Origin: a virus
Length of the DNA: 40,626 nt
Virus record (IMG/VR): IMGVR_UViG_3300017786_000035
Coordinates: 1-40,626 of that record
Direction: 5' to 3' (one strand)
This document shows, one piece after another, positions 2,711-16,971 of this stretch. How positions within the stretch are numbered: position 1 is the first letter of the stretch; every line of letters begins with the position of its first letter. Below the pieces are notes generated by a model. That model saw nothing but the letters and a program-made list of their open reading frames with translations, made no database searches and had not been told where the DNA came from. The position numbers and the translations under genes are program-made.

Positions 2711-4330
2711 TTATATGTTCAACAGCTGACCCACACCTTCGGGATCAATCTGTTTAGCCTCAGCAACATCTTTAAGTGCCCCAGTAATTTGAGGAGCTGC
2801 TTGAGCTTGCATCATTTGTTGTTTTTGTTCGTTAGCTTGGTTAATTTGTGCTTGAACCTCCTCAGCCGATTTGACCACCGCTGGGTCAAGATTGCGATAT
2901 TTAGCGTAGCTCGCAAGTAACGTCTGTTCGTCAATAGCACCCATAATCTCAGGTTTAACCTGAGCAAGAGGAGCGATATCTCGCATAAAGGAACTAATAT
3001 CTGATAGACGTGTCGCATATTGGGATTGGGAAGCTGGGCTAGAAAAAGTAATTTCTAACATACCACCATTCAACGACTCTGGTCTCTCAGGTAACTGACC
3101 TTGACGTTCAAGTAGCTCAAAGGTTGCTTCGATTGCTGGAGCTAGATATTCAGTCTCCATACGATTTAGCAACGGTGCTAGTTGGTTCAACATCTGACCA
3201 CGCACGTCTTGGATCTCGGTAACACTCTGACGTTCCTTCTTTTCTTGACGTATGATTTGATCGACAAAGAATGAACGGTTGATGCTATCACGATACATCC
3301 GAATCATTTCCATTACATACTGTGGCTGATTACCTGCCAAGATCGGCGAAGGTTTCTCAGAGCCAGCTTCATGGAACATAATCTGACGTGACCCGTACTT
3401 CATCGGAAGCATGATGCTGTCTTCTTCTGCAGTAAGGGTTGGGAAGTTTAAATACTCAGCAGAGATCAAGGCTTCCTTGACCATCTTGTTGAGCGCACGG
3501 ATCTGAGACAAGCATGAGAATGCTGGTCCACGTCCGTATACCTCGTCTGCTAACTTAGACCAACGAGGTACTAGGAAAGTAAAGTAACTAGATCCGCTCT
3601 CTTCAATGACATCTTTTAGAGATGGACTCCAGTAAGTAACCTTGTATGGGCGACCTTTGCCAACACGTCCGCCCTTCTTAGCAGCTGGATCGTTGTTCGG
3701 CTCGATTGTATATACAAGTTCAAGTTTGTTGTGAACGGACATCTCCTTGTTGAATCCGTCCATGTCCGCAATCTGCGGAAAGGCTTGAAGCATCTGACGT
3801 GCTGTCTTATAGCAGCGGTAATGTACTGTGTCTACATTACCAAACTGATCTGTATCAAAAAATACATCAGCAAGAGGACGAGCGCGAAAGTTAACCACTC
3901 CATCGACTTCAGTAATCTGAACAGGAGCAGTACCATAAGCCCCAATATCAAGGAAACACTCGTGGCTTGTACTATAAAACTGTGATTTAGGTAGACTAAA
4001 TTCATGAAGAATTCTGTCTGAGACTTGCTGAAGATAGGCAAGTTCATCGCTACTGAGTTGTCCTGATGGTTTGTCTGTTACTTTTAAATAAAACCAGCGA
4101 TCTGATTTAGGTACTAGATTTGAGCTAAGACCGTTCGCAAACATCTGATTACACCACACCGCAGTGTCATCGTAGATCTCACGAGAGCCATCATCTTGGA
4201 AAGGGGTATGCCCGTGATCAAACTTGTTGGAGTTTGGACGGACATACTTTTGCGCATCAAGAAACATGTTATCAAGGTGAGACCTCAATAACTTTAATTC
4301 TTCATAACGCTGACGTAATGTTTTAACCAT
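2711..4330 (-). CDS. Portal (head-to-tail connector) protein
   Basis: This 539-aa protein forms the dodecameric DNA channel at the unique capsid vertex. The sequence has the hallmarks of T7-like connectors: an N-terminal helical start (MVKTLRQRYEELKLLRSHL), then 'DDTAVWCNQMFANGLSSNLVP..RWFYL', a mid-region 'YGRGPAFSCLSQIRALNKMVKEALISAE', and a Gln/Ala-rich C-terminal tail (QINQANEQKQQMMQAQAAPQ). Length matches T7 gp8 (536 aa). An upstream GTG at 4348 would add six residues, but ATG 4330 overlaps the stop of the Pro-rich gene (ATGGTTAA) and is preferred. It lies downstream of the terminase and upstream of scaffold, in the usual order. Confidence 0.9.
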   Translation of the reverse strand: MVKTLRQRYEELKLLRSHLDNMFLDAQKYVRPNSNKFDHGHTPFQDDGSREIYDDTAVWCNQMFANGLSSNLVPKSDRWFYLKVTDKPSGQLSSDELAYLQQVSDRILHEFSLPKSQFYSTSHECFLDIGAYGTAPVQITEVDGVVNFRARPLADVFFDTDQFGNVDTVHYRCYKTARQMLQAFPQIADMDGFNKEMSVHNKLELVYTIEPNNDPAAKKGGRVGKGRPYKVTYWSPSLKDVIEESGSSYFTFLVPRWSKLADEVYGRGPAFSCLSQIRALNKMVKEALISAEYLNFPTLTAEEDSIMLPMKYGSRQIMFHEAGSEKPSPILAGNQPQYVMEMIRMYRDSINRSFFVDQIIRQEKKERQSVTEIQDVRGQMLNQLAPLLNRMETEYLAPAIEATFELLERQGQLPERPESLNGGMLEITFSSPASQSQYATRLSDISSFMRDIAPLAQVKPEIMGAIDEQTLLASYAKYRNLDPAVVKSAEEVQAQINQANEQKQQMMQAQAAPQITGALKDVAEAKQIDPEGVGQLLNI

Positions 4331-4553
4331 ACAAGTTACCACCGCCACCTAGAGGTGAGCGACCTTGCGTCTTATTGTTCTGCTGATTAGCACGACGTGG
4401 CAATACGCTACCCATACCAAACAACGATCCAGTTGTCAGTCTCCGAGTCGGCGTCTTCGCTTTTGCGATTGGCTGACGTGCCACAGGTGCTGGCGGAGGA
4501 GGCGGAGCTGGAGGTGCTGGAGGCGGAGGTGGTGGCTTAGGTCTGCTGCCCAT
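4323..4553 (-). CDS. Small proline-rich protein
   Basis: This 76-aa protein has residues ~5-24 almost entirely proline and alanine, followed by a basic, Gly-rich tail (RRLTTGSLFGMGSVLPRR). Small Pro-rich proteins next to the portal gene are common in podoviruses, but their role is unknown; a structural linker is plausible. It overlaps the preceding gene by 17 nt and its stop overlaps the portal ATG. The conserved position and tight coupling support it being real despite its low complexity. Confidence 0.65.
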   Translation of the reverse strand: MGSRPKPPPPPPAPPAPPPPPAPVARQPIAKAKTPTRRLTTGSLFGMGSVLPRRANQQNNKTQGRSPLGGGGNLYG

Positions 4554-6467: not shown

Positions 6468-7005
6468 TTTTATCCTCGTCACTAATAAACTCATCATATT
6501 CCTCGTCGTTGTCAATCACCTCTGCGTCCACAATATCTTTCAGCTGACTCTTCGTCACTGCGCTGTAGTCCACAGTCATGATCTTCATCTCGCCAGTTAT
6601 ATTCTGCTGGACGTCCACACTCTTAAGTTTTGGCTGCGTGTAACTCGCCAACTCCTTCCAAATTGCAATCCTCTCCTTCACGGGAACTTCCTCATCTGCT
6701 GTGAAGTTCATCAGCTCCTCGATGGGGTTGATCCCTCTCTCTGCAAACATAGCCAAAAGTGCCTTACGCTGCTGAGCTGGAGTAGGGGCTTTGCTCATCA
6801 TATCAAGAAACTGCTCCTTGAGCGTCAGCTCCTTCTCAACTTTTACCAGCTCTTTCTGAGCGACCTTCATGTCTTCTTCTGCTTTCATACGCTTACGATG
6901 ACATCGAGATCTCTTCGCTGCCTGTTGCTTGATTACCTGCTTCGGCTTCTTGCCAGAAGCATACGTTCGTTTATCTGTGACCTTAACGGTGCTTTCGTCC
7001 ACCAT
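6460..7005 (-). CDS. Putative terminase small subunit
   Basis: This is the first gene of the leftward structural block: 181 aa, with a Lys/Arg-rich N-terminus (residues ~20-45, rich in K/R) and a predicted coiled coil at 42-70. A helical segment 'TPAQQRKALLAMFAERGINPIEELM....EVPVKERIAIWKELASYTQPKLKSVDV' follows. The 'A..L..Y..PKLKSV' pattern is like that of many small terminases, which recognise DNA and load TerL, and the position just upstream of terL agrees. The C-terminus is acidic. A TTGACA box lies 27-32 bases upstream, so translation may begin close to the transcript's 5' end. Without a search the name is tentative. Confidence 0.55.
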   Translation of the reverse strand: MVDESTVKVTDKRTYASGKKPKQVIKQQAAKRSRCHRKRMKAEEDMKVAQKELVKVEKELTLKEQFLDMMSKAPTPAQQRKALLAMFAERGINPIEELMNFTADEEVPVKERIAIWKELASYTQPKLKSVDVQQNITGEMKIMTVDYSAVTKSQLKDIVDAEVIDNDEEYDEFISDEDKNE

Positions 7006-7006
7006 T

Positions 7007-7037
7007 TACATATGAATCTTTGCATACGCCGTGTCAA
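7007..7037 (-). promoter_or_regulatory. Candidate sigma-70 promoter for the leftward structural block
   Basis: On the minus strand TTGACA (7037-7032) is followed after 16-17 bases by TCATAT/CATATG (about 7015-7009), a weak -10. The predicted start would fall at or next to ATG 7005, giving a very short leader. Two near-matches of the local GTGTACC repeat (GGAACAC at 7061-7067 and 7072-7078) and one exact copy lie just upstream, as would suit an activator or repressor site. Confidence 0.35.
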
Positions 7038-7051
7038 GTACAAAAACACGT

Positions 7052-7298
7052 GGTACACTTGGAACACCTATGGAACACTTTTTTTGGGTGGGTGTACCCA
7101 ATTCTATTATATGAATATTAAGGACTTACAGAATCTGGTACACAAAGTACACTTTTTTCTGGGGAAAATTATTTTTAGTTTATGTCTCTTGAAAAAGTGT
7201 ACCTTCTGTTCCAAATTACGTAAGTCGTTGATAAAGCTACAGACTTATGAAACTGAAAAGTGTACCACAAAGTGTACCCTAGGTGTACCAAGTGTACC
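7052..7298. repeat. GTGTACC / GGTACAC repeat cluster
   Basis: Eight exact copies of GTGTACC or its complement are visible, at 7052-7058, 7092-7098, 7137-7143, 7197-7203, 7260-7266, 7272-7278, 7283-7289 and 7292-7298. AGTACAC (7146) and GGAACAC (7061, 7072) are near-copies. The last four are spaced 12, 11 and 9 bases apart, about one helical turn. A/T-rich DNA (AAAATTATTTTTAG) lies within the cluster. The layout suits an operator array for divergent transcription or an iteron-type replication origin; sequence alone does not decide. Confidence 0.75.
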
Positions 7299-7299
7299 A

Positions 7300-7629
7300 C
7301 AATTGCCTAATACCTAGGGGCTATACCTCATTAATTCCTCAAAAATCGAAAATTGGATACGCAGGTAGGGACTCCTCGTGTGTCTCCGATGCAGTCCCCC
7401 CATGTGCCCCCCGATCCAAAGTGCCGTGCACCTCGGGTCGGAGCACCTGCAGTACACGATTCGCGGAACAAAGCTACATGCACCACCAGTCCACCGACCC
7501 TACGCAACACCGACCTCGGCGGGATAACGTGTTGGTGCTCAGTATCTTACATCCGATTCGCCATCGCAACGCAGGAAGTTGCCCACTTCAAGACCCTATC
7601 GGCGACACAAACCAAAAAACCAGCCCTCC
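7300..7629. other. C-rich stretch without a supported gene
   Basis: About 330 bases between the repeat cluster and the decayed gene copy. The plus strand is rich in C and poor in T and in TA steps, which leaves two overlapping plus-strand frames open (7283-7729 and 7353-7775). Their translations are Pro/Ser/Thr/Arg-rich, resemble no protein and run antisense through the decayed copy. On the minus strand no long frame exists. It may be further decayed DNA or a structured untranslated RNA; I see no decisive signal. Confidence 0.4.
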
Positions 7630-7975
7630 AAAAAGATCCGAGGACTGTTGCCAACCCTCCACCTCATGGCTTATCCGACGATGGACGATTCGCTGTCCGT
7701 TCACACCCATCCGAGTATCTCGGCTCTGACCGACCGCCATCCTTGAATCCGCGCACACCCCACGCCATGCAGTAAATCGCCATCCACGCCACGAGGACTA
7801 GCGAGCCTCAACGGGCTGGTTGCCGGCAGTTCAAACAGTATGCTGTCGGTCGCTCTGAGTCACGAATGTTTCATTGGACATTTGCTCATGTTACTATTTT
7901 GCTGGAACCTTGGTTTTTTTGATCAACGTGCTCTATAAATCCTGTAAAGGTAGAATTTTCTGAGAAGCGGTGAAT
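7630..7975 (-). repeat. Left arm of a large inverted duplication
   Basis: Read on the minus strand, this stretch aligns with 8045-8403 on the plus strand over its whole length. It includes the upstream operator (GATCAACGTGCTC at 7921-7933, compare GAGCACGTTGCTC at 8082-8094), the promoter-side block (AAATCCTGT), a decayed gene copy and a shared downstream terminator block (GTTGGCAACAG then CCTCGG then a T run). Both arms share a midpoint near 8010, separated by about 70 bases. Confidence 0.8.
7671..7889 (-). pseudogene. Decayed inverted copy of the 76-aa early gene at 8130-8360
   Basis: On the minus strand from ATG 7889 the DNA keeps recognisable blocks of the intact gene in the same order: GCAAATGT near the start, CAACCAGCC, CGCTAGTCCT, TTCAAG, AACGG then ACAGCGA, and TCGGATAAGC at the end. 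In-frame stops and indels break the reading frame (MSKCPMKHS then stop; later a short CRQPA match followed by a stop). It is 219 nt against 231 nt. The surrounding DNA is clearly C-rich on the plus strand, unlike the rest of the genome. I infer a duplicated early gene that lost its coding function, or one retained only as RNA. Confidence 0.7.
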
Positions 7976-8028
7976 AAAGCTAATCGTTGTCTTGTGACGT
8001 ATGTCCAGTAACGTAGCCACCCTTCAGT

Positions 8029-8045
8029 GAATCGTATTACGATTC
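8029..8045. promoter_or_regulatory. 17-bp perfect inverted repeat at the centre of the control region
   Basis: GAATCGTA-T-TACGATTC is an 8-bp perfect inverted repeat around a single base, near the symmetry centre of the inverted duplication and about 85 bases before the first early start codon. It is a candidate operator for a dimeric DNA-binding protein or a small RNA hairpin. Confidence 0.5.
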
Positions 8046-8062
8046 GTGGGAAAATCTCCACC

Positions 8063-8094
8063 TTGACAGGATTTCCTTAACGAGCACGTTGCTC
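8063..8094 (+). promoter_or_regulatory. Conserved early promoter/operator block
   Basis: TTGACA at 8063-8068 begins a block that ends in GAGCACGTTGCTC (8082-8094), an inverted repeat with 5-bp half-sites GAGCA/TGCTC. The same order (TTTACA, then GATCAACGTGCTC read in reverse) is kept upstream of the decayed copy on the minus strand. Conservation after the coding part decayed supports a regulatory role. No good -10 hexamer is seen at the usual distance, so the start site is unclear. Confidence 0.45.
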
Positions 8095-8129
8095 AAAAAG
8101 AACCAAGAACCACAGTAAAATAACGTAAC

Positions 8130-8360
8130 ATGGCAAATGTAACCAAAGAAAAATCCGCACCTCAGATCAACTCGTCAGCATGGACTGTTATGTCCTGCCG
8201 TCAACCAGCCGCTGTTGAGGACTACGCGCTAGTCCTTCGCAGCGAGTCTGGCGAATACTGCAAGTTGTGGGATGCACACGCCTTCAAGCGTGGCGCAACG
8301 GTCACAGTCGAGACAATCGTTTGGGAGAACGGTTACAGCGACTCGTTCATCATCGGATAA
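8130..8360 (+). CDS. Early hypothetical protein (76 aa)
   Basis: First plus-strand gene after the control region. The 76-aa product is MANVTKEKSAPQINSSAWTV... with CRQPAAVEDYALVL, a 'FKRGATVTVETIVWENGYSDSF' beta-rich half, and no membrane segment. I do not recognise a family. It is followed at once by a strong terminator (8368-8403), so it is probably a monocistronic, highly expressed immediate-early gene. Such genes are often host-takeover proteins, but that is inference. A decayed inverted copy lies at 7671-7889. Leader TAACGTAAC-ATG has no Shine-Dalgarno motif. Confidence 0.75.
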   Translation: MANVTKEKSAPQINSSAWTVMSCRQPAAVEDYALVLRSESGEYCKLWDAHAFKRGATVTVETIVWENGYSDSFIIG

Positions 8361-8367
8361 GCTCATC

Positions 8368-8403
8368 GAGCTGGGGGTTGGCAACAGCCCTCGGCTCTTT
8401 TTT
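8368..8403 (+). terminator. Rho-independent terminator after the first early gene
   Basis: A 10-bp stem (GAGCTGGGGG / CCCTCGGCTC with two G-U pairs) and a 10-base loop (TTGGCAACAG) are followed by six T. A degenerate version of the same element lies inverted at 7630-7660 after the decayed gene copy. Confidence 0.85.
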
Positions 8404-8445
8404 CCGCTAATAAATAAAAAACAAAACAAATCAATATATACTACT

Positions 8446-8634
8446 ATGCAAAACAACACATATCCTTACATAATCAGCTACCAAGTAAAAGATAATCCAG
8501 ACTATGACTACGAAGAAGAATTCGACACTATTAAACTGGCTATGAAACGAGCAATGTTTATTCAGAACATGTTCGACGTAGACGGTATAGTAACTGTATC
8601 GGATAAGACTGGCGCGTTAGTTGAAGTTGGGTAA
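8446..8634 (+). CDS. Early hypothetical protein (62 aa)
   Basis: A 62-aa acidic protein starting MQNNTYPYIISYQVKDNPDYDYEEEF, with an amphipathic helix (IKLAMKRAMFIQNMF) and a C-terminal beta-like end (GIVTVSDKTGALVEVG). No family recognised. The frame is open further upstream, but that part overlaps the terminator. ATG 8446 sits just after a CAATATATACTACT leader, the pattern seen before other early genes. It precedes a small membrane-protein gene by 18 bases. Confidence 0.65.
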   Translation: MQNNTYPYIISYQVKDNPDYDYEEEFDTIKLAMKRAMFIQNMFDVDGIVTVSDKTGALVEVG

Positions 8635-8652
8635 CCCAAACCAAAACATACT

Positions 8653-8826
8653 ATGAATCCAGAAATCATAACGTATATCATTCTCGGACCAGTCGTCACA
8701 GTCTATCTAGGATTGTTTGTATATCTCTTTGTTAAACTATACCACACAACCAACAAATCCAAGTACACTAGCAAGTACGTGGATGAGGGTCGTGATCTTG
8801 ATCAACACTGGTCGAAACTAAAATAA
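8653..8826 (+). CDS. Small single-span membrane protein (57 aa)
   Basis: The 57-aa product is MNPEIITYIILGPVVTVYLG then LFVYLFVKLY (one hydrophobic helix, residues ~5-29), followed by a charged tail (SKYTSKYVDEGRDLDQHWSKLK). The topology suggests an inner-membrane protein with a cytoplasmic C-terminus. It lies in the immediate-early cluster, where small membrane proteins that alter the host envelope or exclude superinfection are common, but no specific role is visible. Leader ACATACT-ATG. Confidence 0.6.
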   Translation: MNPEIITYIILGPVVTVYLGLFVYLFVKLYHTTNKSKYTSKYVDEGRDLDQHWSKLK

Positions 8827-8835
8827 TCAATTTAT

Positions 8836-8884
8836 ACCCGTATCAGTACGAGCTCGCTTGGGTGTAGCTCGTACTGTTACGGGT
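8836..8884 (+). terminator. Long stem-loop upstream of the 316-aa gene
   Basis: A 19-bp stem with one mismatch (8836-8854 against 8866-8884; ACCCGTA/TACGGGT outer, CAGTACGAGCT/AGCTCGTACTG inner) encloses an 11-base loop. No T run follows on the plus strand, so it may act as an RNA-processing or stability element in the leader of the next gene. CAATTTATAC lies immediately before it (8828-8837). Confidence 0.7.
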
Positions 8885-8912
8885 TACAAATTCACATCAA
8901 CACAAAACACAT

Positions 8913-9863
8913 ATGTACAATAAAGAATATATATCCTCACTAGTAACTGATATCCACAATACCGAACGGTATTCTGTTGAAAACAAAATGCTCTGGCGCA
9001 ATCTGTACTCATCGGCTCGTCAACACGCTCGTCACCTGCAACGCGACACTGCAGATACCGTGTTCGAGCGTGAGCCCGACGACACAATGGTTCAGATAAT
9101 CGTTGATCAATGGCTTGCTGACAATGAATCCAGCTACCAAGCTCATTCCAATCCCAAAGATGATCGCCAAGTTGGTGACATGTCGTGTGTACAAGCTATG
9201 GAAAGCAAAGCCAAGCAAGATGCCATCGACGCCATCCAAGAGATATTCGGCAAGACCAGCTTCAACAACGCACTACGCATTGCAGTTCGTGAGCAACTTT
9301 ATGATCAAATCGCTGGCTCATCCCCACGACTTGCTGAGTTTCTGTGTCACGCATCTGACCAATGGCTTTCTGATAACGCAACTGAAATAGTAGACAAATC
9401 AATCAAGTACACCAGTTGCGATATCACGACATACACACAGTTCGGAGAATCACATGAGCGTAACAACCTCACGTTCCTCGAACACGAATCACTGAACGAT
9501 GCGGACCAACAAGCTATGCAACGTGAGTACGATGAATCGTTCTATCAATCACCTGAGTGTGATCCTGATGATGCACGTTTCCTCGGCACACCACCCAAAT
9601 CAGACAGCTGGGAAGACAAAATGAAATCCGACTACCAAGATCGCGGACGTGGATCAGGCGGTGTTCTCGGTGGTCTCTACACAGAGTCTCGTCCAGAACC
9701 AACCTATCGCACACCTGATCAAAAGCGTACACTGCGCAAAACATTGTTCAGTAGCGACAACGAAGCGGATGCGTTGCTTGGCGTTTATGTGACCGTCGGC
9801 AGTAACGCTGACGCACGTAACCGTCTCAAACAACGTATCAAACAAAAGTTCAACGCAAACTAA
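8913..9863 (+). CDS. Early hypothetical protein (316 aa)
   Basis: A 316-aa soluble protein, no family recognised. Two similar helical segments are visible, MVQIIVDQWLADNESSYQ (residues ~59-76) and LAEFLCHASDQWLSDNATEI (~138-157), which may be an internal repeat. The C-terminal half is rich in charged and Gly residues (QDRGRGSGGVLGGL) and ends with a basic helix (NRLKQRIKQKFNAN), suggesting nucleic-acid or partner binding. It is preceded by the 8836-8884 stem-loop and followed one base later by a membrane-protein gene. Confidence 0.7.
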   Translation: MYNKEYISSLVTDIHNTERYSVENKMLWRNLYSSARQHARHLQRDTADTVFEREPDDTMVQIIVDQWLADNESSYQAHSNPKDDRQVGDMSCVQAMESKAKQDAIDAIQEIFGKTSFNNALRIAVREQLYDQIAGSSPRLAEFLCHASDQWLSDNATEIVDKSIKYTSCDITTYTQFGESHERNNLTFLEHESLNDADQQAMQREYDESFYQSPECDPDDARFLGTPPKSDSWEDKMKSDYQDRGRGSGGVLGGLYTESRPEPTYRTPDQKRTLRKTLFSSDNEADALLGVYVTVGSNADARNRLKQRIKQKFNAN

Positions 9864-10299: not shown

Positions 10300-10599
10300 A
10301 TGGATCTAAATCTACAAGGAGCACTTGACCAACTTACGCCAATCGAGCGTAACATTCTATACCTGCGGTATGGTCTTGACAACGGTAATCCTACTACTCT
10401 CGAAGAGATCGGTGAGGAGTACGGTATTACTCGTGAGCGTATACGTCAGATAGAAGCAAAAGCATTACGTAAGCTTCGCCACCCTGACATGGTACGTATC
10501 ATTATCAAAGAAAAACAGCCCCCTCACAAAAGCAAGGGGGCTGTACACAACAACAAGAATACGAATAACAATAAACAACACCGAGTGGATGGGTTGTAG
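10300..10599 (+). CDS. Stand-alone sigma-70 region 4 protein
   Basis: This 99-aa protein has residues 10-62 that read like region 4 of a primary sigma factor: [18 protein letters not shown], then [20 protein letters not shown] and [10 protein letters not shown], the helix-turn-helix that contacts the -35 element. Regions 1-3 are absent. The C-terminal 30 residues are polar, Asn/Lys-rich and probably disordered. A sigma-4 fragment alone could bind the RNA polymerase beta-flap and displace or mimic host sigma region 4, redirecting transcription. That matters here because no phage RNA polymerase gene is seen. A 9-bp GC-rich hairpin (10516-10543) lies in the 3' end of the gene. Confidence 0.85.
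10516..10543 (+). terminator. Stem-loop within the 3' end of the sigma-4 gene
   Basis: A perfect 9-bp stem CAGCCCCCT / AGGGGGCTG with a 10-base A-rich loop. No T run follows. It lies inside the coding sequence for the disordered tail and may be a processing or transcription-attenuation element ahead of the ubiquitin-like gene. Confidence 0.6.
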
Positions 10600-10682: not shown

Positions 10683-10907
10683 ATGGCTAATGTAACAATC
10701 CGCTACGGTCTTACAAACTCTGTAACTCGTAGCTTCGACGAAGGCGTCACTGTCGGTGACGTACTCTCGGATCGCTCGATCCGCATGGCACTCTCAGCTC
10801 CAGAAGCTGTAGTTGCTGTATCCAACGGTGAGACACTCTCATCGACCAGCATGATTGAGAACTACGACTCAATCACACTTGAGCAACAAGCCTCAAGCAA
10901 AGCGTAA
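10683..10907 (+). CDS. Ubiquitin-like beta-grasp protein (Prok_Ub / PRTRC-C type)
   Basis: This 74-aa protein has the strand-turn-strand-helix-strand order of a beta-grasp fold: MANVTIRYG then SVTRSFDEG, helix VGDVLSDRSIRMAL, strands AVVAVSNGE and SITLEQQ. I assign it to the prokaryotic ubiquitin-like family found with E1, E2 and JAB genes (PRTRC protein C, Prok_Ub). The genes that follow encode exactly those partners, which is the strongest support. It ends EQQASSKA with no di-glycine, so activation would need trimming or a different C-terminal chemistry. A hairpin terminator (10958-10985) separates it from the enzyme genes, so it is likely made in excess over them. Confidence 0.75.
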   Translation: MANVTIRYGLTNSVTRSFDEGVTVGDVLSDRSIRMALSAPEAVVAVSNGETLSSTSMIENYDSITLEQQASSKA

Positions 10908-10957
10908 CTTTCTACGTATACCGTAGAGGTTAGTAGTTAGTATATATCATATGTGTT

Positions 10958-10993
10958 ACCTGTCACCTCATACGAGGTGGCAGGTTTTCCTTT
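10958..10993 (+). terminator. Terminator between the Ubl gene and the E2-like gene
   Basis: A 12-bp stem (ACCTGTCACCTC 10958-10969 / GAGGTGGCAGGT 10974-10985, one G-U) with a 4-base loop ATAC is followed by TTTTCCTTT. The next start codon is only 15 bases beyond the stem. Partial termination here would lower expression of the E2, E1 and JAMM genes relative to the modifier. Confidence 0.8.
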
Positions 10994-10999
10994 ATTATT

Positions 11000-11794
11000 A
11001 TGTCCGATCCAATCACACAAGAAATCATACTGCAGCCAGACGGCAACTTCTACAAACGTACAGTTGTCACTACGCTGCTCAAATCACAGGCTGATGCTGT
11101 ACAACGTGTAAAGTCAAAACCTGCTTTCCATGTTACAGACATACCTGTTGCGCCTAATACACTCATCGCATCGTTCACTGGCAGTGACAAACATTATCTG
11201 TTCAGAGAAGTACAGTTCTTCCCGTTTCGTGGTGCTTTGCTACGACCAAACGACGAAGGCAGTTATCGCATGAGTATTACTGGCACACCGTTTAGTAGAC
11301 ACGACGACAACGAAATCCAAACTCAAACCTTCAACGAAGGCAAAGGCTTACGTTGGGAACCTTACGCAGCTGGTGGATTTAGAATGTTTTACATGTTTAC
11401 ACACAAATACCACAAAGGCTTTGTCCAAAATTTTGGTAATCCTTATGTATTCCTGTACCATCCAAACCTAAAACATTCGTACATACCCAATCTGCCCAAT
11501 GTATACGACAGAGGTCAAATCTGTACAGGTGATGACTTCACAGCCGAAGAAACAACGCTACACAAGCTATTAGCAACCAACGAAGTCGAACTCAACAATA
11601 GTTATTGCAACAATGACTTGCGTATGAGTACTGACGCAGAAGCTCATTTCATTAAATACAATAGCAATGGTGGTACTGAAACAATCGCTGATGAGTACAT
11701 GCCAAAGGATGGTAAAGGTAATTTCTTCTTTATACCACCAAACCTTGAACCAATCTTAGAATTTACATCATGGCTGAACAACACGAAACGCTAA
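11000..11794 (+). CDS. E2-like conjugating protein (PRTRC-B / prokaryotic E2 family D type)
   Basis: A 264-aa protein. Residues 147-178 read NPYVFLYHPNL, then NLPNVYDRGQICTGDD. The HPN at 154-156 followed by an acidic/Gly turn and Cys175 in 'GQICTG' parallels the HPN...GxICLD active site of E2 enzymes. The N-terminal half (TLIASFTGSDKHYLFREVQFF, here residues 54-74) fits the PRTRC system protein B pattern. The predicted role is to accept the Ubl from the E1-like enzyme on Cys175 and pass it to a target. It lies between the Ubl gene and the E1 gene; its end overlaps the next gene by 25 nt. Confidence 0.75.
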   Translation: MSDPITQEIILQPDGNFYKRTVVTTLLKSQADAVQRVKSKPAFHVTDIPVAPNTLIASFTGSDKHYLFREVQFFPFRGALLRPNDEGSYRMSITGTPFSRHDDNEIQTQTFNEGKGLRWEPYAAGGFRMFYMFTHKYHKGFVQNFGNPYVFLYHPNLKHSYIPNLPNVYDRGQICTGDDFTAEETTLHKLLATNEVELNNSYCNNDLRMSTDAEAHFIKYNSNGGTETIADEYMPKDGKGNFFFIPPNLEPILEFTSWLNNTKR

Positions 11795-12108
11795 CTGAAG
11801 TACTAGATACGTGCCCACCTGTTCTCTCTAATGCACACCATTATGCATCAAATCTAAACAGAGAAGGACGACGTAGTATTCTTCAGTACTGCGACTCAAT
11901 CAAAGGCGAAGAAAGTCACCAACTAGATACGTACGAGATTCATCACGGGCTCAGCCCAAAAGAACTGCGCACGCTACTCAAGATTGTTGCCAAGGATTTT
12001 CCAGATTGTGGTCGTAAGCGTGGTGCAATCCTGCGCTACATCAAAGCGTTTATGCCTGAAGAAAATACTGACAACCGTAAACTATACAATATTCTCAATG
12101 AAACCTAA
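11770..12108 (+). CDS. Uncharacterised protein of the ubiquitin-like operon (112 aa)
   Basis: A 112-aa mostly helical protein with no family recognised. Features are NAHHYASNLNREGRRSILQY and, at residues ~53-93, DTYEIHHGLSPKELRTLLKI then VAKDFPDCGRKRGAILRYIKAF. It overlaps the E2-like gene by 25 nt, and its stop overlaps the E1 start (ATGAAACCTAA), so it is embedded in the conjugation operon and translationally coupled to both neighbours. It could be an adaptor, target-recognition (E3-like) factor or target, but nothing in the sequence shows a RING or other known E3 fold. Confidence 0.7.
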   Translation: MAEQHETLTEVLDTCPPVLSNAHHYASNLNREGRRSILQYCDSIKGEESHQLDTYEIHHGLSPKELRTLLKIVAKDFPDCGRKRGAILRYIKAFMPEENTDNRKLYNILNET

Positions 12109-12811
12109 ACTAAATGCAATCATTATCGGTGCTGGTGGTGTTACATCATACATGCTACCTGCACTCAAGAACAGTTTCGACTTGAAGCTCACACTGTTCG
12201 ACGGCGACAGATTGGAAACACACAATCTTGACCGCCAGTTGTTTCGCAACAACCAAGTAGGCGAGTACAAAGCTCGTGCACTCATGAAGCTGTACAACTT
12301 CCGCAAAGGCGAAGGCACTGCGGTATCAGATTACTTCGTACCCGAGATACTTGACACTGAGTACAAGTTCTTCTTCGGTGACTGCGACATCATCATCTGT
12401 TGTGTAGACAATCACCCAGCACGCAAAGCGTCTATCGACGCTGCGATTCAATACAACAAACCAATCCTTGTATGTGCTAACGAGTACCACACAAGTCAGG
12501 CATTCTACTATGATCCCAAACTTGTGCGTGACTTTCCACACATGCATCCGTACGCACGCTACCCAGAGATTGCAACTGACCAATCAGGCAGTCCTCTTAA
12601 CTGTCAAGGCATGGCACTTGAATCTGATCCACAGCTTGCTATTGCAAATCAAGTAGCTGGCTCACTTGGTAACTATTTGATCTGGCTCTGGCACGGCATG
12701 GAACGCGACGAACACGTCGAGTATATGCCTTGTGAGTTTCAATCAACCTTCTCACGGTTGCAAACTATTACAGTTGGCGACCTATCAAAGTTAGAAAGTA
12801 AATCAGCGTAA
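12098..12811 (+). CDS. ThiF/E1-like Ubl-activating enzyme (PRTRC ThiF type)
   Basis: A 237-aa protein expected to adenylate the Ubl C-terminus. Residues 7-20 (AIIIGAGGVTSYML) are the nucleotide-binding Gly loop (GAGG 11-14). LFDGDRLETHNLDRQLF at 33-49 carries the conserved acidic residues, Asn43 and Arg46-Gln47. Lys58 and the CCVDNHPAR segment (101-109) match E1 active-site elements. Cys169 in SPLNCQG is the likely catalytic cysteine, followed by an IANQVAG helix as in PRTRC ThiF proteins. No zinc CxxC pairs are present, unlike MoeB. The frame is open upstream to 11984, but ATG 12098 begins the recognisable domain and overlaps the previous stop. Confidence 0.88.
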   Translation: MKPKLNAIIIGAGGVTSYMLPALKNSFDLKLTLFDGDRLETHNLDRQLFRNNQVGEYKARALMKLYNFRKGEGTAVSDYFVPEILDTEYKFFFGDCDIIICCVDNHPARKASIDAAIQYNKPILVCANEYHTSQAFYYDPKLVRDFPHMHPYARYPEIATDQSGSPLNCQGMALESDPQLAIANQVAGSLGNYLIWLWHGMERDEHVEYMPCEFQSTFSRLQTITVGDLSKLESKSA

Positions 12812-13947
12812 TGGTTATTCACGACAACAAAGTATACGAACAAGTAACCACTGACTTGTTCACGGTGTTCAAAGAAGTTGAAACACCAGCAACAAACAAC
12901 ATTGTACCTGAGTTTCACGGCAAGCCAATACCAATGCGTATGTGGCATGACATCATGCACTGCATGAAGCAGACTCAGGATGAGTTCAACTCCGAAGCAC
13001 TTGTGTTCTTGTTCTACAATGCAGACAGTAATCAACCTTGGTCGTGGTGGCTACCACCGCAACAAACCAACGGCATGACTGTCAAGTCGTTACCTAACGA
13101 CCCTGAGTACAAGAAGCAACGTGCAGAGTACCCAGACCTTATGCTCGGTACAGTGCACCATCACTGTACAAGCTCAGCGTTTCAATCAGGCACTGACGAA
13201 GCTGACGAAGTAAACCGTGAGGGTCTACACTTTACCATCGGTCATCTTGACAAAGATAAAGTTGACGTACACTTCCGCATGTCACTCGGTGGTCAATGTG
13301 TTGATATGGATGCACATACGTACATTGAGAAAGTACCATCACCGTTCAAGAAGAACGCTAAAGTATCTGATCAAATATACAACGCAGTTGTTAACCGTAT
13401 GACTCAAGACGCAATGGTTGTGCACAGTCCAGAAAACAAAGACTACTCACATCTATTTGATAACATTCACAAGCCCACAATAGGTTACAAGAATAACAAA
13501 GTTACAGGACTAGGTGCTGTAGCTTGGGATGACCGTGACGACTGGTGGGACAAGCAATACTACAAACCCACAACCAAACGTAAAAAAAACTCGCACGAAG
13601 AGGTCGCTGATGACCTACTGACTGCATTCCTTACAGATTATGAATATGAAGACTGCCTTATCAACTATTACAGCTATCTCGGTGATAACTCATCTAGTCA
13701 AAGACTTACAACCTCAAACTTGGACGAAGAAGTCATTAAAGAAGATATCCTCAAAATGCTCGTCGATGACCACTTCCAAGCCACTACTGAGGGTAAACAA
13801 ATGCTTAAAATCATTGAAGCATTTTGCGAAGAACAAAAACAATTCGGTGTTGACACAACCATTGCAGACATCCAGCATGGACTCTCAATACTCAGCATTG
13901 AAGACGGAAGCACAGTTCAATACATGGATCAGGAAGCAGTTCTATGA
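12811..13947 (+). CDS. JAMM/MPN+ metallopeptidase, deubiquitinase-like (PRTRC-A-like)
   Basis: A 378-aa protein. Residues 116-129 (HHHCTSSAFQSGTD) match the JAMM zinc signature H-x-H-x7-S-x2-D exactly (His116, His118, Ser126, Asp129). Glu62 in SEALVFLFYN is the probable catalytic glutamate, and FYNADSNQPWSWWLPPQQ matches the MPN core of PRTRC protein A. Such enzymes cleave Ubl tails or Ubl-target isopeptide bonds. Here it could trim the non-GG Ubl tail and/or recycle conjugates. The C-terminal ~190 residues are unassigned, acidic and helical. The start overlaps the E1 stop by one base (TAATG). Confidence 0.88.
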   Translation: MVIHDNKVYEQVTTDLFTVFKEVETPATNNIVPEFHGKPIPMRMWHDIMHCMKQTQDEFNSEALVFLFYNADSNQPWSWWLPPQQTNGMTVKSLPNDPEYKKQRAEYPDLMLGTVHHHCTSSAFQSGTDEADEVNREGLHFTIGHLDKDKVDVHFRMSLGGQCVDMDAHTYIEKVPSPFKKNAKVSDQIYNAVVNRMTQDAMVVHSPENKDYSHLFDNIHKPTIGYKNNKVTGLGAVAWDDRDDWWDKQYYKPTTKRKKNSHEEVADDLLTAFLTDYEYEDCLINYYSYLGDNSSSQRLTTSNLDEEVIKEDILKMLVDDHFQATTEGKQMLKIIEAFCEEQKQFGVDTTIADIQHGLSILSIEDGSTVQYMDQEAVL

Positions 13948-14296
13948 GCATACGAATGGAAAAGTTGTTATACAGCGTATCGAAAATACTACGTCTAACG
14001 GAGTACCTGATATCTTGGTTATCTTGCAAGATCGAATATTGCTTATTGAGAGCAAGTTTGAAGTTGGAAAAATACGTCCTGAACAGTCAGCGTTCCAGAT
14101 CAAATGCAACGAAGTCATCAAGAACAGCATCAACAAATGCATCACGCTCACAGCCTACCCGAAGACCAACAGATTTGTAATGAGGAGGTTTGATGCGTCC
14201 TGTATTAATGACAGCGGTGTCGAAGACCCATGCCCAGTAACCTTTGGCATGACAAAAGAAGGTTTCAACGACTTTTACAAATACATTTCACAATAA
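13877..14296 (+). CDS. PD-(D/E)XK nuclease, VRR-NUC-like
   Basis: A 139-aa protein with EAQFNTWIRKQF, then GVPDILV (residues 42-48, Asp45) and LLIESKF (Glu58-x-Lys60). This is the PD...ExK catalytic core of small restriction-like/VRR-NUC nucleases, and RPEQSAFQ follows as in that family. Likely roles are resolution of branched replication DNA or host DNA breakdown. The start ATG 13877 lies 71 nt inside the JAMM gene in another frame; no later Met preserves the core, so the overlap seems real. The longer upstream frame is a shadow of the JAMM gene. Confidence 0.75.
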   Translation: MDSQYSALKTEAQFNTWIRKQFYEHTNGKVVIQRIENTTSNGVPDILVILQDRILLIESKFEVGKIRPEQSAFQIKCNEVIKNSINKCITLTAYPKTNRFVMRRFDASCINDSGVEDPCPVTFGMTKEGFNDFYKYISQ

Positions 14297-15141: not shown

Positions 15142-16971
15142 ATGCTACAACCACCCCTCTTCGCACCTGAATCAAACTGGCGTCCACCTGCTGTACTGCC
15201 TCAGTTTGGTAAAGTCATTGCAGTTGACTTAGAAACCTGCGACCCTGACCTCAAGCTATACGGACCATCATACAAGCGTGGAGCTGGTAAAGTAGTTGGT
15301 ATTGCTATAGCAGATGAGCATCAAGAAATATATTTACCTATCGACCATTTCGGTGGTGATAACCTAGATAGAAACATTGTATTAGCATACGTGAAGCGAG
15401 TACTTACAAACAGTGCTGAAGTTCTGTTTGCTAATGCTGCATATGATCTCGGCTGGCTTGAGACCTTAGGGGTAGGTGTCTCTTGTCCAGTCCGAGACAT
15501 ACAGATTGCAGAAGCTCTGATTGATGAGGAGCAGTTCTCATACAGTCTAAACAATCTGTCAAAGAAATACTTGGACAGAACTAAGTTTGAAGATGAACTC
15601 AAAAACGCTGCACAAGCATACAACATCGACCCCAAAGCTGAGATGTGGAAACTACCTGCACGATATGTAGGCGAGTATGCAGAGATTGATGCACGTAACA
15701 CTTGGGACATCTACCAATACCAAAAGCCCGTACTGCGTGAGCAGGGATTGTGGGACGTGTGGGAGCTTGAATGCAAGCTTACACCTGTACTTGTACACAT
15801 GACAATGAAAGGTGTGCCTGTAGACTTAGACAAAGCAGAACAACTAAACAACCAACTTATACTCAAGGAACAAGAACTAAAGAAACATTTTCAACATATA
15901 GATATATGGTCAGGTGCTCAGCTTGCTAAGCACATAGAAGGTCTTGGTCTTGTTGTACCTAAGACTGAGAAAGGTAACCCATCCATATCAAAAGACTTCT
16001 TAGTTAACTGCGACCACCCAGAAGTTAAGTTGATACACGAAGCACGAAGTATCAACCGACTCAGGAAAGTGTTCATTGAAGACACCATACTAAAACAAAA
16101 CTATAAAGGACGAATACATGCCGACTTCAAACAAACTGCATCAGACTCTGGTGGCACTCGCTCAGGGCGGTTATCTTCAGCGAACCCAAACATGCAACAA
16201 GTACCTAAGCGAAGTGATATCGGTAAAGCTATCCGAAGTCTCTACCTCGCAGAGCCCGACAAACTCTGGTGTAAAGCAGATTACTCTTCCCAAGAACCAC
16301 GTCTCCAAGTCCACTATGCGCTTATTGGCGAGTTCAATCGACCACTCCCAAAAGCTCAGGAAGCTCTAGAAGCCTTTGAGCGTGGTGAAAAGTTATACAC
16401 ATTCTTTGAAAAAACAACTGGATTACCCTATGACACCTGTAAGATGTTATGCCTAGGTATTAGTTATGGTATGGGTATGAAGAAGATGGCTAAGACATTG
16501 GGCATATCCGAAGAAATGTGCCAAACAACCATGCGTAAATTTAATTCAGAAGCCCCGTTCCTCAAGATTCTGTACGACAACGTAATGAACCTTGCAAGCT
16601 CACGAGGCTACATCAAAACAATTATGGGACGTCGTGCTCGCTTTGACTTCTGGGTCAAAGAGTTCGGTGACTCACCAATCAAAACTTTAGAAAAAGCAAA
16701 ACAAAAGCATCCTAACTCCGCACTCTTCCGTGCATTTACCAGCAAAGCATTGAACAGACTCATCCAAGGCTCAGCAGCAGACCAAGCAAAAAAGGCTATG
16801 GTAGATGCTTATGACGCTGGATTTGACATGCGGTTACCAGTGCACGATGAAATTAACTGCATGGTTAATTCTGAAAAGGAGAGTTTGGACTTGAAATTGA
16901 TCATGGAGAATGCTATACAGCTCAAAGTACCAGTTATTGCAGATATTGATTTAGGCAAGACTTGGTGCTAA
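15142..16971 (+). CDS. Family A DNA polymerase with 3'-5' exonuclease
   Basis: The 609-aa replicative polymerase. Exonuclease motifs: Asp29/Glu31 (VDLET), Asp102 (ANAAYDL) and Tyr179/Asp183 (YAEIDARNT). Polymerase motifs: A at Asp380 (ADYSSQEPR), B around Lys434-Tyr442 (CKMLCLGISYG) and C at His568-Asp569-Glu570 (PVHDE). The residue aligned with E. coli Phe762 is Leu438, a variant reported to be common in virioplankton and linked to slower, more accurate synthesis. The position aligned with Arg754 appears to be Tyr430, which is unusual. The start directly follows the endolysin stop (TAA-ATG). The 5'-3' exonuclease domain is absent, as in T7. Confidence 0.95.
   Translation: MLQPPLFAPESNWRPPAVLPQFGKVIAVDLETCDPDLKLYGPSYKRGAGKVVGIAIADEHQEIYLPIDHFGGDNLDRNIVLAYVKRVLTNSAEVLFANAAYDLGWLETLGVGVSCPVRDIQIAEALIDEEQFSYSLNNLSKKYLDRTKFEDELKNAAQAYNIDPKAEMWKLPARYVGEYAEIDARNTWDIYQYQKPVLREQGLWDVWELECKLTPVLVHMTMKGVPVDLDKAEQLNNQLILKEQELKKHFQHIDIWSGAQLAKHIEGLGLVVPKTEKGNPSISKDFLVNCDHPEVKLIHEARSINRLRKVFIEDTILKQNYKGRIHADFKQTASDSGGTRSGRLSSANPNMQQVPKRSDIGKAIRSLYLAEPDKLWCKADYSSQEPRLQVHYALIGEFNRPLPKAQEALEAFERGEKLYTFFEKTTGLPYDTCKMLCLGISYGMGMKKMAKTLGISEEMCQTTMRKFNSEAPFLKILYDNVMNLASSRGYIKTIMGRRARFDFWVKEFGDSPIKTLEKAKQKHPNSALFRAFTSKALNRLIQGSAADQAKKAMVDAYDAGFDMRLPVHDEINCMVNSEKESLDLKLIMENAIQLKVPVIADIDLGKTWC

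Follow-up and report, generated by a model that had tools for sequence, protein, structure and literature searches.

Ubiquitin-like conjugation systems of bacteria have been of interest so far mainly as anti-phage defences, and the Bil system (BilA-D) illustrates their make-up with four separate parts, i.e., a ubiquitin-like protein (Ubl), an E2 conjugating enzyme, an E1 activating enzyme and a JAB-type deubiquitinase. The same bacterial E1, E2 and JAB chemistry is found in Cap2 and Cap3 of type II CBASS (cyclic oligonucleotide-based anti-phage signalling system; PMC10097602), where Cap2, an E1–E2 fusion, conjugates a cGAS-like enzyme. Two further arrangements, the PRTRC cassette of large plasmids (TIGR03735, TIGR03736, TIGR03738 and others) and operon type 6d, described by Iyer, Burroughs and Aravind in 2006 (PMC1779556), combine a separate Ubl with E1, E2 and JAB proteins. 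Here such a gene set is described on a virus contig of 40,626 nucleotides, IMG/VR record IMGVR_UViG_3300017786_000035, the whole of which is called the window below. The set probably encodes a self-contained phage pathway of Ubl conjugation and deconjugation, made early and within the replication module. Systems of this kind are known from bacteria and plasmids, often as anti-phage systems, and are newly seen in phages within the literature searched: no phage-encoded Ubl-E2-E1-JAB set was found in the openly accessible literature, with most subscription papers and preprints lying outside that search.

The cassette extends over positions 10683-13947 of the window, in the order Ubl, E2, p112, E1, JAB, with the following parts:

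10683-10907, plus strand: Ubl, predicted ubiquitin-like modifier of 74 amino acids (aa) with the C-terminal tail QASSKA (AlphaFold2, Foldseek, tail conservation).
10958-10985, plus strand: terminator-like hairpin of 12 bp between Ubl and E2, with a T tract after it (hairpin survey of loci).
11000-11794, plus strand: E2-like conjugating protein, 264 aa; LPN at 11492-11500, putative catalytic Cys175 at 11522-11524 (hhalign, motif).
11770-12108, plus strand: p112, 112 aa, between E2 and E1, possible adaptor (conserved position).
12098-12811, plus strand: E1/ThiF-like activating enzyme, 237 aa counted from MKPKL; Cys169 at 12602-12604 (Pfam ThiF, PRTRC_ThiF).
12811-13947, plus strand: JAMM/JAB peptidase, 378 aa, with an N-terminal extension and a C-terminal extension of ~190 aa (PRTRC_A profile, invariant residues).

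A first-pass annotation, made from the sequence alone, had proposed a complete Ubl pathway for this region, and the open reading frames (ORFs) concerned, namely Ubl, E2, E1, JAB and one ending at 14296, lie at the stated places. The motifs that it had read were likewise found in the sequence, i.e., GAGG at 11-14 and Cys169 in the E1, GQIC with Cys175 in the E2, and the exact HxH-x7-S-x2-D signature of the JAB; the p112 gene (11770-12108) went unmentioned in it.

That a phage carries the complete and conserved set is supported by its relatives. Scans of viral contigs with E2, E1, JAB and Ubl led to 88 distinct contigs (L numbers below), and all four genes were present in the order Ubl-E2-E1-JAB on every contig that spans the locus (60/60), the missing genes of the remaining 28 lying beyond the contig end. 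Catalytic residues are invariant in the alignments chosen for the E2 (34 sequences), the E1 (27) and the JAB (25), counts that describe these alignments and are not a measure of activity; their most divergent members share 13-28% identity with the window protein. The ratio of nonsynonymous to synonymous change (omega) was 0.05-0.4 for nearly all pairs in each of the five cassette genes, the few exceptions being zero, just above 0.4, or undefined through synonymous saturation, and by this measure all cassette genes are evidently under purifying selection. It is the invariant catalytic residues, the gene order and this selection that make the cassette more than a chance assembly.

The genes diverge at different rates. 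Between the window and contig L024 the identity is 95% for Ubl, 78% for E1, 72% for JAB, 47% for E2 and 46% for p112, so that E2 and p112 are the fastest-diverging parts, and Ubl and E1 the slower ones. The synonymous change in the same comparison was 2.0 for E2 versus 0.25 for Ubl, a difference that suggests recombination of E2 alleles. The p112 gene is found at the same position in relatives, and within the podovirus group its CGRKRGAILRYIK core is conserved. The rapid change of E2 and p112 would be expected of a host-facing part, and the cassette could thus be imagined as a counter-defence against Ubl-based host immunity (Bil, type II CBASS), in which the JAB would deconjugate host tags or the Ubl would divert host E1 and E2, all the more since host anti-phage systems employ the same enzyme classes. 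We regard this as quite unlikely, because the phage has its own E1 and an E2 with conserved catalytic residues, unneeded for simple deconjugation, because Ubl and E1 remain well conserved, and because comparison with PADLOC models gave a marginal BilD match for the E1 (0.001) and none for the other cassette proteins.

The E1 was matched by Pfam ThiF at 1.8e-15 and by PRTRC_ThiF (TIGR03736) at 3.2e-11, the latter below its curated cut-off; alignment to PRTRC ThiF by hhalign gave 99.9% (1.1e-32), and the E1 family profile matched E1s in the PDB at 2e-11. The family keeps GxGG, the N..RQ motif (NLDRQ in the window) and the D-N of the ATP site, and Cys169 is invariant, in line with the ThiF/E1 assignment made earlier. 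The JAB was matched by PRTRC_A (TIGR03735) at 1.5e-8 over residues 2-166 (model positions 30-191 of 192), below the cut-off, and by hhalign at 97.5%. Its Glu62, His116, His118, Ser126 and Asp129 are invariant, which together with the exact signature bears out the earlier reading as a JAMM peptidase; a Trp (W45) in its N-terminal part is also invariant.

The E2-like protein aligned to PRTRC_B by hhalign at 96.65% (4.7e-10), and Prok-E2_D was matched by 14 of the 34 family members taken alone, at best at 9.9e-5; the window protein itself matched it weakly (0.16). An HPN at residues 154-156 had been named in the first-pass annotation as its E2 motif. This triplet is present in the window, but it is replaced by SPE, NPE, NPQ or NNE/NDE in relatives, and was therefore set aside as coincidental. 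The conserved motif is LPN at 165-167 followed by Cys175, with Asn167, Cys175 and Gly177 invariant; the Asn stands eight residues before the Cys (PN-x4-G-x-[ILV]-C), a spacing shared with the eukaryotic E2s UBE2D2, UBE2I and UBE2N. Of the proposal that the 264-aa protein is a Prok-E2_D-type E2, Cys175 and the profile relationship thus stood, and the HPN did not. A confident structure model (predicted local distance difference test, pLDDT, 90.7) has a core with a short helix, four strands, a loop bearing the Cys, and helices. Among viral models it matched two uncharacterised proteins at E<0.001, one of them from an uncultured Caudovirales phage; sequence searches of the PDB with the E2 and JAB profiles gave nothing significant.

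For the Ubl of the window, no Pfam or NCBIfam match was obtained. Its AlphaFold2 model (pLDDT 91.9) was matched by Foldseek to ubiquitins in the PDB with a probability of 1.00 and template modelling (TM) scores of 0.66-0.75 for most listed matches, the top one being an archaeal ubiquitin solved in complex with its Rpn11 homolog. The fold, as modelled, is a ubiquitin-like beta-grasp, as had been claimed. Membership of Prok_Ub/PRTRC_C, proposed along with it, found no profile support (hhalign 0.33%). A Lys-Ala (K-A) tail occurs in 63 of 65 distinct viral Ubls and K-G in one. In 47 the protein ends exactly at K-A, and the other 18 add 1-30 residues without a common pattern; moreover, three phage genes, one of them in L083, encode head-to-tail double Ubls, joined after K-A. 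The sequences follow the pattern of a modifier released by cleavage of precursors, as in ubiquitin precursors. A C-terminal Ala is workable for conjugation, since bacterial Cap2 systems are reported to conjugate through a terminal Gly or Ala, and the thioester still forms after a change of Gly to Ala, with conjugation persisting at a reduced level (Jenson et al. 2023, PMC10097602).

The same proteins might be thought to form a sulfur carrier, with the Ubl acting like ThiS, MoaD or Urm1, an E1-made thiocarboxylate modifying a nucleotide, tRNA or phage DNA base, and the JAB only maturing the Ubl. The E1 is indeed ThiF-like, individual Ubl members match SAMP2 (9.6e-4) and ThiS (1.5e-3), and a related podovirus without the cassette has, upstream of polA, a pyrimidine hydroxymethylase among other nucleotide genes. 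An E2-like protein with an invariant Cys is, however, linked to the Ubl in every spanning contig, the cassette ORFs scanned included no recognisable rhodanese, cysteine desulfurase or thiolase, and the tail ends in Ala, whereas the classical carriers ThiS and MoaD have Gly-Gly; a sulfur carrier is therefore rather unlikely.

Of the systems introduced above, PRTRC had been given as the match. Its E1, E2 (protein B, Prok-E2_D) and JAB (protein A) are related to the phage enzymes by profile (hhalign 99.9% for ThiF, 96.7% for B and 97.5% for A), both have a small stand-alone Ubl, and several PRTRC_C tails, A-G-x-K-G, resemble the phage A-x-S-K-A by eye. The phage Ubl, on the other hand, is not alignable to PRTRC_C by profile, the phage JAB has the long C-terminal extension, and the phage order Ubl-E2-p112-E1-JAB differs from ParB-E-C-F-B-A-ThiF; nor did any neighbouring ORF scanned around the phage cassette, which unlike PRTRC is phage-carried, match ParB, E or F. 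The cassette is filed as PRTRC-like and not as a PRTRC member, because the relationship holds for the enzymes but not for the Ubl profile, the gene order or the accessory genes. Operon type 6d (PMC1779556) likewise has a separate Ubl, an E2 without the HPN His, an E1, a JAB with an N-terminal domain, and a further protein. Its JAB N-terminal domain has a conserved Arg and Trp, of which W45 of the phage JAB may be a counterpart; its Ubl has a conserved C-terminal Gly, whereas the phage Ubl ends in Ala, and tandem Ubls in some phages and a terminator between Ubl and E2 set the phage loci apart. On profile evidence, E1, E2 and JAB are thus distant relatives of the PRTRC and 6d systems, and the Ubl and gene order are not. 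Bil resembles the cassette in its four separate parts and differs in being a bacterial defence, while the Cap2 fusion contrasts with separate phage enzymes and what is predicted to be a true beta-grasp Ubl.

A phage-encoded Ubl domain and JAB are also found in the lambda/T1 tail proteins I and K, and as tail assembly is known to involve Ubl-JAB pairs of phages (PMC1779556), the cassette proteins could be non-catalytic binding partners, e.g., in virion assembly. The I and K genes, however, lie among tail assembly genes without E1 or E2, whereas the cassette lies in the replication module, away from tail genes, has both E1 and E2, and keeps its catalytic residues invariant, all of which makes a structural role very improbable.

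E2, p112, E1 and JAB overlap or abut, and a gap sets the Ubl gene apart from E2. A hairpin of at least 9 pairs with a T-rich tail was found in this gap in 25 of 31 loci, compared with 3.85 expected from dinucleotide shuffles, and the hairpins of different phage groups are unrelated in sequence. A general terminator scan of the region gave no excess (7 versus 6.8 expected), so that the support for the hairpin lies in its conserved position; it suggests that more Ubl than enzyme is probably made.

Covalent conjugation of the Ubl is likely, and the following sequence of events can be proposed. The cassette would be expressed early in infection, with Ubl in excess of the enzymes owing to the terminator after its gene. 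The E1 would adenylate the C-terminal Ala of the Ubl and hold the Ubl as a thioester on Cys169, from which it would be handed to Cys175 of the E2. The E2, with Asn167 in the position of the HPN Asn and perhaps aided by p112, would then join the Ubl to target lysines, and the JAB would strip it off again. Where relatives have tail extensions or tandem Ubl-Ubl genes, the JAB would also mature the Ubl by cutting after Lys-Ala. DNA-replication proteins or host proteins met early in infection may be the targets; such a target is a lead and not a result. The first-pass annotation had pictured RNA polymerase or defence factors as the tagged proteins, or a shielding of phage proteins; these may be among the outcomes, and no computed result points to any one of them.

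Several observations weigh against this pathway. The Foldseek search of the PDB with the full-length E2 model gave no significant match and no E2, and the E2 fold hence rests on sequence profiles and the motif. In the phage E2s, N-x-D-L stands where a conserved downstream His is described for 6d E2s (two cyanobacterial members compared also have no such His), the Lys-Ala tail departs from the C-terminal Gly (Gly-Gly) of classical modifiers, and no E3 ligase or target was identified from sequence. Furthermore, no sliding clamp was seen in the phage loci, and a link to clamps in bacterial relatives (see below) may not apply to the phages. On balance we lean towards the broader view that phages of several unrelated backbones use their own complete Lys-Ala Ubl pathway, with an attenuated operon and, in some, double precursors, for tagging proteins of the host or of the phage during replication. 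That many marine podoviruses, and phages of other kinds, keep the whole set under purifying selection suggests that viruses, too, make use of this chemistry; if true, this would reverse the usual picture of bacteria using such systems against phages. It would also provide a compact model of Ubl conjugation that is encoded entirely by a phage and whose tail is not Gly-Gly, and would make the roles of PRTRC-type systems, for which no reported function was found in the literature searched, directly testable.

The window is that of a marine podovirus, and the cassette is located in its DNA-replication module. The 545-aa product of 2711-4348 was identified as a head-tail connector (3.5e-88); the window further encodes PolA, helicases, a primase-like protein and a capsid protein. 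The lytic lifestyle assigned in the first-pass annotation is plausible only insofar as the window ORFs scanned showed no integrase or repressor. Many relatives share the window backbone (TerL, portal and PolA matches), to which those of L084 and L106 are distantly related (TerL 53% and 47%). For contigs L082, L083, L085-L099, L107 and L108 (35-97 kb), the parts examined showed no window-backbone match; many of these contigs had a terminase match, which was strong in four cases and, for most of the contigs of 45-58 kb, weak. The cassette is thus carried by phages of unrelated backbones as well as by the podovirus group of the window. In that group its neighbour is PolA, and in other phages it is found close to genes for Rad52/Mgm101, a helicase or DnaB. 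By TerL, podovirus MW202510 (41.7 kb) is the closest annotated relative, with the same backbone order but without the cassette.

Relatives of the cassette are almost absent from annotated phage and plasmid records. No relatives of the E2 (tblastn), or of the JABs of L089 and L083, were found in 50,697 phage records; the window JAB had one distant match there, on a gut scaffold carrying a ThiF and a clamp gene as well, and where ThiF matches occur in other annotated phages, no more than 62% of the query is covered. Among 72,556 plasmid records, a single distant match was obtained for the window JAB and none for the L089 JAB, and the 29 E1 matches were all below 60% identity, several of them within PRTRC cassettes. 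A scan of genome contigs with a close JAB alignment found nothing, and one with a wider alignment found 10 contigs of metagenome-assembled genomes, mostly Verrucomicrobia, one of which (L126) clearly comes from a phage of the window's group. Another relative, L128, was found on a Limisphaerales contig of 125 kb that also has a sliding-clamp homolog (2842-4314; phmmer 3.6e-7, Pfam nothing at 0.01) and a homolog of JetD of Wadjet (12049-13305). In a raw tally, clamp or clamp-loader genes often lie near bacterial and plasmid relatives, being seen beside L017, L020, L021, L022, L128, L141, L143 and L147, and none near L018, L144, L145 and L146 within the stretch read.

Some loci vary in gene content. 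One or more extra genes, mostly of ~180-300 aa and without a Pfam match for the two scanned, stand between E1 and JAB in L082-L099 (L086, L094 and L097 unread there) and L106-L108. In L061 the E2 and JAB are each split into two ORFs, by broken genes or sequencing errors; metagenome contigs may contain assembly errors, of which these split frames are a possible example.

The neighbours of the cassette in the window are as follows:

10300-10599, plus strand: stand-alone sigma-70 region 4 protein (Pfam Sigma70_r4 2.9e-22), not a universal cassette part.
13877-14296, plus strand: VRR-NUC-like nuclease, overlapping the end of JAB, likely start 13877 (VRR_NUC 3.6e-4, below its cut-off).
15142-16971, plus strand: family A DNA polymerase, just downstream, replication-module context (DNA_pol_A 4.3e-53).

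The sigma fragment noted earlier is thus real; its gene adjoins the cassette in close relatives and not in group L011-L014, being confined, among the first relatives, to the closest group of the window. The protein has a basic tail, and in other phages stand-alone sigma region 4 proteins can redirect the RNA polymerase of the host. The nuclease start was placed where homologs begin to align and an ATG stands at 13877, and this gene comes after JAB in the podovirus group. Bacteroidetes-type promoters show no clear excess (6 versus 3.8 expected). At 37 window gene starts, Shine-Dalgarno motifs are few (a 4- or 5-mer in 5/37, a 3-mer in 11/37), and positions -3, -6 and -9 are A-rich. Between the minus-strand late and plus-strand early genes lies a stretch of ~1.1 kb (7005-8130) with no recognised gene, and several long imperfect inverted repeats occur at 6900-9000, e.g., 7050-7081/7269-7300 and 7630-7657/8375-8402.

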